Source: a bacterium (GTDB lineage: Bacteria; UBA9089; CG2-30-40-21; SBAY01). Taken from it: DNA of 6,114 nt. Made by a program: the position numbers and the translations under genes. Positions 2,965 through 6,114 of this stretch are shown here, piece after piece. Numbering within the stretch: the first letter of the stretch is position 1; each line of letters starts with the position of its first letter. The stretch is taken from NCBI GenBank assembly GCA_040757115.1, contig JBFLYA010000221.1:1-6114 (forward strand), read 5' to 3'. The notes under the pieces are model-generated. The model worked only from the letters and a program-made list of their open reading frames with translations, was not told where the DNA came from and did no database searches.

Positions 2965-3087
2965 GAGATAATTGTGCTGAATAGAGGTTAACTACAATTG
3001 ACATTATTATAGCAAATCCCATGAGTCTTTTTCAATAAGAGAAATATCTAAATAAGTATTATACGAGTTACAATAAAGGTATATATT
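2965..3087 (+). promoter_or_regulatory. Leader of the decarboxylase-radical SAM operon
   Basis: This AT-rich gap must hold the operon promoter if transcription does not come from the IS region. A perfect TTGACA lies at 2998-3003, but no good -10 hexamer is placed 16-18 nt after it. TATTAT (3057-3062) and TACAAT (3069-3074) lack a matching -35. AAAGG (3075-3079), 8 nt before the ATG at 3088, is a plausible ribosome binding site. No strong terminator or riboswitch-like structure was seen. Confidence 0.3.
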
Positions 3088-4290
3088 ATGGAAAATAGAA
3101 TAAAGGAAAAAATAATAAGAATTGCGCAGCAAAAGAGTTTTACAAACAAACCATTTTTTTATTTATATGATATTAAAAAAATCAAAAAGCAATTGTCTAT
3201 GCTTAAACAAAGTATACTTCCTAATGTTTCGATATACTATGCAATTAAAGCAAATTCAAATAAGGAAATTCTAAAAATTATAAAAAATAATAAAGTTATT
3301 AAAGGCTTTGAAGTAGCATCTGTTGGAGAGTTAGAAAAGGCGTTAACAGAAGTTGAGGCTGCCCAAGTATTATTCACTGGTCCTGGTAAGCGCGTTCCTG
3401 AGCTGTTCGAAGCCGTTAAGCAGAGGATACGATTCATTAATGTTGAATCGCTAACAGAAATTCATAGAATTAACCAGATTGCACAAGAACAGAAAGTTGG
3501 AAAAGTTGACATTTTAATCAGGATTAATCCTAATTACAGGATACAAAATTCAGTTTTGGAAATGACAGGATTTTCTACTAAGCTTGGAATAGATGAAAGA
3601 TACATACCAGAAGTCATTGAGCAAATAAAAAAAATAGATCATATTAATGTAAAAGGGATACACGTGTTTGCAGCGAGTGGTATTCTTGATTATAATGTCA
3701 TAGTTGATTATATAAAATATATTTTTAATCTGGTTTCCTGGCTCGAAAGGGATGTCCAAAAACTTGATATTGTTGATTTTGGTGGAGGTCTGGGAATTGA
3801 TTATTTTAGTACTGGAAAAAAATTTGATACTTCCGCTTTTTTCAGCGAATTAAACGATTTGATCATAAAATACAAATTTCAGAATAAAGAATTCATTCTG
3901 GAATTAGGCAGGTATATTGTAGGTAAAGCAGGATATTATGTTTCTGAAATCATCGATATCAAAGAATCGTATAATAAAAAACAAGTTATACTGTCAGGCG
4001 GTATTAATCATTTACGTCTTATTAAGAAACATCCCTTCACAATAATTCACATGGCTAAAGATTGTGTGTATGAAGAACAACCCTTTGTTAATAAGAATGT
4101 TGTTGATATTAATGGGCCATTGTGTTTTAATGGAGACAAATTATATGATGATCTATTTATTGATTGTGCACATATAGGTGATTTATTTGTTGTTCATTTG
4201 GTTGGGGCATATGGATATAATATGGCCTCTCTGAATTTTCTTGAACATCCTAAACCTGAAGAGGTTTTTTATTACAGTGAAGGAGAATAG
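3088..4290 (+). CDS. PLP-dependent fold-type III decarboxylase (LysA/BtrK-like)
   Basis: This 400-residue protein has the usual length for the ornithine/diaminopimelate/arginine decarboxylase group: an alanine racemase-like barrel followed by a beta domain. Visible landmarks are Y-Y-A-I-K-A-N with the PLP lysine K54, G-I-H-V-F-A-A-S-G with H192 expected to stack on the cofactor, the phosphate-binding D-F-G-G-G-L-G (230-236), L-E-L-G-R-Y-I-V (271-278; E272 toward the pyridine nitrogen), G-P-L-C-F-N-G-D (343-350; C346) and G-A-Y-G-Y (373-377). It removes a carboxylate from an amino acid or an amino-acid derivative. The HVFAASG block and the C-F-N-G-D in place of the LysA-type C-E-S-G-D differ from housekeeping diaminopimelate decarboxylase as I recall it. 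They recall pathway enzymes such as BtrK, which acts on carrier-bound glutamate. The substrate cannot be told from sequence. The start has AAAGG 8 nt upstream. The stop is one base before the next gene's start, so the two are cotranscribed. Confidence 0.85.
   Translation: MENRIKEKIIRIAQQKSFTNKPFFYLYDIKKIKKQLSMLKQSILPNVSIYYAIKANSNKEILKIIKNNKVIKGFEVASVGELEKALTEVEAAQVLFTGPGKRVPELFEAVKQRIRFINVESLTEIHRINQIAQEQKVGKVDILIRINPNYRIQNSVLEMTGFSTKLGIDERYIPEVIEQIKKIDHINVKGIHVFAASGILDYNVIVDYIKYIFNLVSWLERDVQKLDIVDFGGGLGIDYFSTGKKFDTSAFFSELNDLIIKYKFQNKEFILELGRYIVGKAGYYVSEIIDIKESYNKKQVILSGGINHLRLIKKHPFTIIHMAKDCVYEEQPFVNKNVVDINGPLCFNGDKLYDDLFIDCAHIGDLFVVHLVGAYGYNMASLNFLEHPKPEEVFYYSEGE
4280..4285 (+). promoter_or_regulatory. 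Ribosome binding site that sets the radical SAM start
   Basis: AAGGAG lies 6 nt before the ATG at 4292. It selects this start over the in-frame TTG at 4241, which lies inside the previous gene without a comparable site and would add 17 residues. Confidence 0.8.
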
Positions 4291-4291
4291 T

Positions 4292-5962
4292 ATGTCTTCA
4301 TCTACTAATAGTTTGTTAATAAATTATGTAAGTAATCTGGAATTGTTAAGCGGTTTAATCCCAGATATAGGACTGGCTACTTTGGCTGGCGCCCTTAAAG
4401 CAAATGGACATAAAGTCAAAATTATTGATTATGCTACCATAGATATGATTGACAGACTAGAGCCTACACCTGAGTTGAAACTAGAATATAATGCAATAGT
4501 AGGACCACTGGCAATCTATTTTCAAAATAATTATCCAATCCCTGATGACATTTTAAAAGGTTTTAATTATGACAAATATCTGAAACTTCTAGAAAGCGAA
4601 AAGGCGGAAAGACAAATTGTATTAAAGGAAATAATACACGAGCTCTGTAAGGAGATCGAGAATTCTAATATTGATTTTTTAGGATTTAAATTATGGGCCG
4701 GGGATGCTTTTGAAGAAACTTTAATAATTGCTGAATATTTAAAAGCAAAATTTCCTAATCTGAAGATTTTCGGTGGGGGACCACTAGTTGATTGGTTAAA
4801 AGAAATTATTTTTAGTAAAACCCATGCGTTTGATATCGTAGTTTTTGGTGAAGGCGATGAAACGATTGTAAAATTAGCCGATTATTGCCTTAAAAAAGAA
4901 AAATTAGAAAATATTCCCAATATTATTTTCAGGAATGGTGCTAAAATAAAAATTAATGATAGTGTCATTGTAGAAAATCTAGAAAAGAATTATAAACCCT
5001 GTTACTCCCCAGAAATTTATCCTGCCTTAGCCGGTAACAATAAATTAAAAGTATTTATGCTTGAGGAAAGTAGAGGCTGTCCCTATTTATGTAATTTTTG
5101 TGCACATCCGCTTAAATCAGGTAAGAAGTGGCGTATCAAATCTGCAGATAATATAACAGAAGAAATGGAAAGTATAATTGCTCATCACAATTCTAATACA
5201 TTTAGATTTTGTGGTTCCAGTACACCAGCAAGACTACAAACCAGGATTGCTAAAAAAATCATCGAAAAAGGATTGCAGGTCAGGTATAGTAGTTTTGCCC
5301 ATTTTCAAGATTATAATAAATGCAACTTTGAGTTGCTGAGTTGTGCAGGATGTAAATCTTTATTATTCGGGTTAGAATCAGGAAGTCCTAAAATACAGAA
5401 GCATATAATGAATAAGGTTATTAAAATTGAAAATGCAAAAAAAATCATAGAGGAATGCCGAAGGAATAAGATTCAGACTGTTATTTCTATAATATATCCA
5501 GCTCCCAAAGAGACAATAGAAACAATGCAAATGACAATCGAAGCATTGAAACATATCAGACCTGATTCGGTTTTTACTTGTATTCCGGTTATTGTACCAT
5601 ATACAAAATGGTTTAATTATCCAGAAGAATATAATATTGATATTGATTCTAAAATACAGTATATTGAAATGATTTCCAGTTACAAACCGCGGTATAATGG
5701 TCATCCTATTCTATGGAGATCAGGGGTGCATAGAGTAAATGGTTTGGACTATAAACAGCAAACCTTAAAATGCGGTATTATGATTAATGAATTGAAAAAA
5801 AATAATTTTTATACTCAGATTACAGAAGAAGAAATACTATTTGCCTCGGTTCTTGGGATTTCTGCTGCCGAACTGGCATATAAGTATCAGAAAATTAGGC
5901 AAGATGGCGATATTATCGCATTATGGCAACTAGTAACGGATATTAATAATAATTGTAAATAA
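4292..5962 (+). CDS. Cobalamin-binding-domain radical SAM enzyme
   Basis: This 556-residue protein has an N-terminal B12-binding-like domain and a radical SAM core (class B-like layout). The first part shows P-D-I-G-L-A-T-L-A-G-A-L-K-A-N-G-H (24-40), F-G-G-G-P (160-164) and V-F-G-E-G-D-E-T (184-191). The DxHxxG cobalamin-ligand motif is absent, as in many enzymes of this class. The core has R-G-C-P-Y-L-C-N-F-C, a CX3CX2C triad for the 4Fe-4S cluster (C263, C267, C270), then A-G-C-K-S-L-L-F-G-L-E-S-G-S (352-365) and M-N-K (373-375). Such proteins usually methylate unactivated carbon or phosphorus, but some catalyse ring or other rearrangements. A ribosome binding site 6 nt upstream fixes the start, one base after the decarboxylase stop. 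The two probably act on the same pathway intermediate. The last 100 residues or so match nothing I recognise. The substrate is unknown. Confidence 0.85.
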   Translation: MSSSTNSLLINYVSNLELLSGLIPDIGLATLAGALKANGHKVKIIDYATIDMIDRLEPTPELKLEYNAIVGPLAIYFQNNYPIPDDILKGFNYDKYLKLLESEKAERQIVLKEIIHELCKEIENSNIDFLGFKLWAGDAFEETLIIAEYLKAKFPNLKIFGGGPLVDWLKEIIFSKTHAFDIVVFGEGDETIVKLADYCLKKEKLENIPNIIFRNGAKIKINDSVIVENLEKNYKPCYSPEIYPALAGNNKLKVFMLEESRGCPYLCNFCAHPLKSGKKWRIKSADNITEEMESIIAHHNSNTFRFCGSSTPARLQTRIAKKIIEKGLQVRYSSFAHFQDYNKCNFELLSCAGCKSLLFGLESGSPKIQKHIMNKVIKIENAKKIIEECRRNKIQTVISIIYPAPKETIETMQMTIEALKHIRPDSVFTCIPVIVPYTKWFNYPEEYNIDIDSKIQYIEMISSYKPRYNGHPILWRSGVHRVNGLDYKQQTLKCGIMINELKKNNFYTQITEEEILFASVLGISAAELAYKYQKIRQDGDIIALWQLVTDINNNCK

Positions 5963-5989: not shown

Positions 5990-6051
5990 ATAGGGCTTCA
6001 CGAAATTAAAGATTAGGTGCTACATAGCATAACATCGTGCACCCTATTTTA
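5990..6051 (+). terminator. Weak terminator-like hairpin after the operon
   Basis: ATAGGG..CACGA (5990-6003) can pair with TCGTG..CCCTAT (6035-6047), with a small internal mismatch and a loop of about 31 nt, followed by TTTT. A shorter alternative stem is GGTGC (6016-6020) with GCACC (6039-6043). The position, 27 nt after the last stop, suits a transcription terminator, but the long loop and short T run make it weak. Confidence 0.35.
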
Positions 6052-6083
6052 ATACAAATTTATAGCAGGACATCGTGCACTCT
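6025..6083 (+). repeat. Two direct copies of a 21-nt motif
   Basis: TAGCATAACATCGTGCACCCT (6025-6045) and a second copy at 6063-6083 agree at 18 of 21 positions, with the core ACATCGTGCAC identical. The core recurs inverted in the right arm of the palindrome at the window end. It could be a protein-binding site or the end of a mobile element. Neither can be decided here. Confidence 0.6.
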
Positions 6084-6114
6084 CACCCCATGGGGTGAGA
6101 GTGCACGATGTCCT
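6067..6114. repeat. 48-nt perfect palindrome at the window edge
   Basis: AGGACATCGTGCACTCTCAC (6067-6086) and the following CCCC form a left arm of 24 nt with the central A. It is matched base for base by the right arm, with the centre at CCCCATGGGG (6086-6095). The last window base is the last palindrome base. As RNA it would form a very strong hairpin. As DNA it may be a real inverted repeat or a fold-back product at a contig end. Confidence 0.8.

Follow-up and report, generated by a model that had tools for sequence, protein, structure and literature searches.

The pyridoxal phosphate (PLP) dependent decarboxylases SbnH, AcsE, FigC, MccE and BtrK form one polyamine-unrelated clade that uses conjugated amino acids (PMC7857480). 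The residues with which one of them, the N-citryl-2,3-diaminopropionate decarboxylase SbnH, contacts citrate have been published as R304, S308, W309, K347 and H379 (PMC7857480). Among the cobalamin radical SAM enzymes, methylation is the commonest chemistry (PMC11659888), and PEP mutases are mostly fused to further domains, mainly nucleotidyltransferases (PMC6697681). This paper describes a locus in which a decarboxylase and a radical SAM protein of these general types are encoded side by side.

The window, i.e., the whole stretch of DNA analysed, is an entire contig of 6,114 bases (G000:C221) of a draft genome of 4.3 Mb. On its forward strand, an open reading frame at 3088-4290, with an ATG start and a TAG stop, encodes a PLP decarboxylase of fold III (alanine-racemase fold) of 400 amino acids, assigned by Pfam, alignment and tree, and a second one at 4292-5962 encodes a B12-binding/radical SAM protein of 556 amino acids, assigned by Pfam and a structure model. 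The intergenic gap is one base (4291), in agreement with the original prediction of two intact genes lying one base apart, and both reading frames are unbroken (956 codons together) with their catalytic residues kept. The ATG at 4292 was chosen on basis of its Shine-Dalgarno sequence, an AAGGAG read at 4280-4285 (forward strand), six bases upstream; the alternative, longer start, TTG at 4241, would overlap the decarboxylase gene. Since this AAGGAG lies within the end of the decarboxylase gene, the two genes are likely to be translationally coupled, as judged from this arrangement. The decarboxylase start is itself preceded by AAAGG at 3075-3079.

The decarboxylase matches the Pfam families Orn_Arg_deC_N (1.4e-37) and Orn_DAP_Arg_deC (8.3e-10) far above chance, and it retains Lys54 (IKAN), His192 (GIHVF), G232-G234, E272, C346, D350 and Y375. 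Both domains, the PLP lysine, the GGG stretch and the C-terminal Cys/Asp/Tyr of the polyamine-unrelated fold-III decarboxylases are thus present, while the specificity loop reads C-F-N-G-D and is new. The best NCBIfam model is that of BtrK and the exosortase-A-associated decarboxylases (TIGR03099, 268.3 bits), with which the protein shares membership of the polyamine-unrelated group; however, it scores below the cut-off of 478.45 bits, lacks the CTP loop, and is placed by the tree outside the BtrK/TIGR03099 group. Because the catalytic core is kept and the loops of LysA, of the NRPS-independent siderophore (NIS) enzymes and of BtrK are absent, the protein very probably works as a decarboxylase, on a substrate that its relatives do not reveal; decarboxylation as such is well supported.

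In a maximum-likelihood tree, a branch with 99/94 support separates LysA from the clade of the window decarboxylase, which also lies outside the LysA group itself (95/98). Together with two relatives, designated L044 and L071, it forms a three-member clade (100/99) in which all members keep the catalytic residues, and which is sister, with modest support (90/78), to the NIS citryl-amino-acid decarboxylases; the latter clade, of the SbnH/AcsE/FigC type, is supported at 100/100 and does not include the window protein. The nearest relative, L044, from an Erysipelotrichaceae metagenome-assembled genome (MAG), is 47-48% identical, and L071 (G162:C13) is 46% identical. L071 was the one further close decarboxylase found among 386 genomes of the family of the L044 genome, and 395 genomes of its class yielded no additional one. 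The useful relatives were found by motif-directed alignment, in which rows 2-4 were artificial and steered which stretches were scanned; the matches were confirmed with the real protein, and loci without the two motifs would escape such a search.

The L044 gene adjoins one small open reading frame. The L071 gene belongs to a cluster of seven, encoding a DUF6271 protein, a phenylacetate-CoA-ligase-like (PaaK-like) protein, a RaSEA-like radical SAM protein, a threonine-synthase-like protein, a GntC-like aminotransferase, the decarboxylase and an agmatinase-like protein, which looks like an undescribed small-molecule pathway. This cluster occupies positions 2766-11010 of its contig in a genome of 1.0 Mb, and its radical SAM protein scores 199 bits, slightly below the RaSEA cut-off of 212. 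That protein is of a non-B12 kind, unlike the one in the window. The different partners of the clade members suggest that the decarboxylase is a module serving several pathways. A very divergent fold-III decarboxylase with a C-F-P-G-D loop was additionally seen on a long branch (L072, G005:C6, 6209-7438; also L033), in a run together with several genes that by eye resemble beta-ketoacyl synthases, one that resembles a methyltransferase and one a phytoene desaturase; a search of the genome to which the window belongs retrieved no counterpart at E 1e-15.

The second protein of the pair matches Radical_SAM (2.4e-15) and B12-binding (2.0e-13) in Pfam, again far above chance. Its N-terminal B12-binding domain (PF02310) scores 50.6 bits against a cut-off of 32.1 and has a full-length structural match, and the CxxxCxxC motif of the radical SAM core is found at residues 263-270 (RGCPYLCNFC). 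Structure prediction covered this protein of the pair and drew on 42 remote homologues encoded on viral contigs, giving an AlphaFold model with a pTM of 0.80 and a mean pLDDT of 77.8, in which confidence is low at about residues 454-478 and 508-556. The best structural matches, over 368-445 residues, were OxsB (Z 26.4), MgmA (25.4), AprD4 (25.3), TsrM (25.2) and CysS (25.2). With OxsB, TsrM, CysS, TokK and MgmA the protein shares an N-terminal Rossmann domain followed by the radical SAM barrel (about 370-445 residues) and the CxxxCxxC motif, but identity across the structural match is 15-19%, the C-terminal tail is its own, and there is an extra helical stretch at about 50-125. The protein thus models as a full cobalamin-type (class B) radical SAM enzyme, in line with what had been predicted. 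AprD4, a diol dehydratase, nevertheless matches the model equally well, and the overall architecture is also shared by MiaB; because neither of these is a B12 methylase, cobalamin use and methylation are proposed here rather than read from the architecture.

The further suggestion that this class of enzyme C- or P-methylates its substrate could not be read from the sequence: the best NCBIfam models, ApyD (118 bits against a cut-off of 750) and PhpK (TIGR04479, a P-methyltransferase model; 107.4 bits against 600), are the closest in sequence, but the protein stays far below both cut-offs. Methylation would be the default guess, since this is the reaction that enzymes of the cobalamin radical SAM type most often carry out (PMC11659888). 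The searches made retrieved no relatives above about 30% identity: plasmids gave matches of 22-28% identity at best, with coverage up to about 65%, a single-sequence search of phages and viral contigs gave no match, and neither did a genome-contig scan with exact 8-mer patterns, by which close relatives alone are reachable. A role in anti-phage defence was considered on basis of a weak PADLOC match (PDC-M51A, 55 bits) and rejected, as this was read as generic radical SAM similarity.

The pairing did not recur at any locus tested, an outcome that the original prediction had itself named as counting against it. Within the stored flanks of 36 decarboxylase loci (10 on plasmids, 25 on genome contigs, and L071), nothing related to the radical SAM protein is encoded, and the closest decarboxylases are accompanied by a small open reading frame (L044) or by a radical SAM protein without B12-binding character (L071). 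Moreover, the L044 genome, a MAG of unstated completeness, had no radical SAM match at E 1e-10, and 392 genomes across its phylum had none at E 1e-25, in a search whose query does retrieve the match in its own genome. In 18 further genomes of the window's phylum, among them a sister species of the same genus, neither gene is present. The pairing is so far unique among the genomes searched, and close relatives of its second protein could occur in genomes beyond these. With a single occurrence, the adjacency of the two genes argues only weakly for a shared pathway.

The region upstream is decayed, as had been noticed at the outset. At 113-607 on the forward strand, profile matches reveal a truncated thiamine pyrophosphate (TPP) enzyme of the phosphonopyruvate/sulfopyruvate decarboxylase beta type. 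Its N-terminus is missing, since the open reading frame begins at position 38 of the 182 of the sulfopyruvate decarboxylase beta profile, or at 215 of the 360 of the phosphonopyruvate decarboxylase profile, and an in-frame TAG lies ahead of it at 98-100. Between this remnant and the gene pair, profile matches and a repeat search identified an ISKra4/ISLre2-like insertion sequence (IS) at 1152-2827, also on the forward strand, with terminal inverted repeats of 25 nt (1152-1176 and 2803-2827) and a transposase reading frame that is split into two pieces. A short element with imperfect 25-nt inverted repeats (84%), which may be a miniature transposon, was observed at 670-806, between the remnant and the IS. 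At the other end of the contig, sequence comparison revealed a repeat at 6018-6114, without assigned strand, that includes a perfect palindrome of 2 x 24 nt (6067-6114); the neighbouring 82 nt are identical near several other contig ends and in the sister genome, and the right contig end therefore probably marks the end of an IS where the assembly broke off. The pair thus lies between stretches of mobile or repeated sequence.

The GC3 values of the TPP remnant, the decarboxylase gene and the radical SAM gene are 0.21-0.25, all within the lowest 3% of the genome (reference 0.309 +/- 0.054, 75 genes), unlike that of the transposase, which is not low. This composition fits, without proving it, a single foreign AT-rich segment that was cut by the IS afterwards, although low GC3 can also occur in AT-rich native islands. 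The low GC3 of all three genes, together with the absence of the pair from the sister species and the phylum genomes, argues for a foreign and shared origin.

Taken together, we consider the chances about even that the pair, bounded by IS-type sequence, is what remains of a horizontally acquired cluster for amino-acid tailoring in which both enzymes act on one scaffold. The two genes would then be a coupled unit left after insertion sequences had cut up a cluster that tailored a small molecule (or a surface glycan). The first enzyme would form a PLP aldimine on Lys54 and remove the alpha-carboxylate from an amino-acid unit, yielding an amine; by analogy with SbnH, AcsE, FigC, MccE and BtrK, the substrate would probably be side-chain-conjugated (or carrier-bound). 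The second enzyme would hold a [4Fe-4S] cluster by Cys263, Cys267 and Cys270, cleave SAM, bind cobalamin in its N-terminal Rossmann domain and modify the scaffold on which the first had acted, with C-methylation as the likeliest reaction. The fold, family and catalytic residues of the proteins, the placement outside LysA, the coupled layout and the rarity of the pair are observations, whereas the common pathway, the conjugated substrate, the cobalamin use, the methylation and the order of the steps are what we infer from them; the two enzymes probably tailor one amine product.

Other readings place the decarboxylase in a known pathway. That it is a second diaminopimelate decarboxylase, or a polyamine decarboxylase, would be suggested by its score with the lysA model (TIGR01048, 235.4 bits), but this is below the curated cut-off of 297.9, and the genome encodes a separate LysA (G000:C176). 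Moreover, the E of the C-E-x-x-D loop and the C-terminal Arg (SbnH column 385) are found in nine of nine LysA proteins, while the window protein has F and H at these positions, reading C-F-N-G-D in the loop and FLEHP where LysA has its Arg. These differences, and the branch that excludes LysA from its clade, bear out the original view of a non-housekeeping enzyme that departs from the LysA motifs, and leave the diaminopimelate or polyamine reading barely credible. Slightly less improbable, but still very unlikely, is that the locus is what remains of an NIS siderophore pathway, with the decarboxylase acting on a citryl-amino acid as SbnH does. SbnH (PDB 6knh) is the best PDB match (217 bits), belongs to the sister clade, and shares the fold, the catalytic lysine and the GYYVxEIIDIK and FLxHPxP stretches. 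In contrast, of its citrate contacts R304 alone is kept: Lys347 is replaced by Gly and His379 by Ser, Ser308 and Trp309 fall within a deletion, the specificity-helix region is shortened, and F-N takes the place of T-P in the CTPK loop. Among 27 NIS-type loci, T-P is present in all 27, a basic residue at position 347 in 26 and His379 in 25. Within the 6.1 kb of the contig itself, no IucA/IucC gene is seen.

An unlikely reading, but less so than the two above, is that the locus was a phosphonate pathway unit, with the TPP enzyme as the source of phosphonoacetaldehyde and the pair acting on the phosphonate head group or on a partner derived from an amino acid. The original prediction had raised such a link through the TPP remnant, and it stands in so far as phosphonopyruvate decarboxylase is the best model of the remnant (120 bits), the remnant and the pair are alike in composition, and the genome does contain an intact phosphonate cluster (L160, G000:C86, 261-3035). 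In this cluster, the gene of a 559-residue protein with an above-cut-off PEP mutase domain (residues 12-280) and the EDKxxxxxNS motif, of which the C-terminal half looks by eye like a nucleotidyltransferase, is followed by separate genes for the alpha and beta subunits of a TPP decarboxylase. However, the cluster is on another contig, it is common to the sister species (L161, G005:C86), and in both species it is without the decarboxylase and the radical SAM gene. The remnant and the intact beta subunit of the cluster share only 32% identity, and the remnant was on this ground rejected as a piece of the cluster. Sulfopyruvate decarboxylase is a further match of the remnant (102 bits), the IS separates the remnant from the pair, and the PhpK score is low; the phosphonate link is weak, and a role of the pair in such a pathway is no more than possible. 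A higher, though still minor, probability is assigned to an accidental or stranded pair, of separate origins or bereft of the rest of its pathway, that makes no joint product. The IS on the left, the genome-wide repeat at the right contig end, the truncated TPP gene and the lack of recurrence are consistent with this, but the integrity of both frames with their catalytic residues, the tight coupling of the genes and their similar composition argue against it.

The best supported conclusion is that the pair, with a decarboxylase of a new subfamily within the known fold-III PLP decarboxylases and a cobalamin-type radical SAM enzyme, was left over from such an acquired tailoring cluster. Since the clade of the window, L044 and L071 proteins is without the specificity loops of the LysA, citryl and BtrK types, it should act on a substrate class outside those tested so far, and the CoA-ligase-like, threonine-synthase-like, GntC-like and agmatinase-like proteins of the L071 cluster provide clues to the chemistry. 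More tentatively, and at odds of well under even, the pair may turn a conjugated amino acid into a C-methylated amine by a route not described before, and the three-member clade would then define a new substrate class employed in several cryptic clusters. The clade is a concrete target for enzymology from poorly sampled bacteria.
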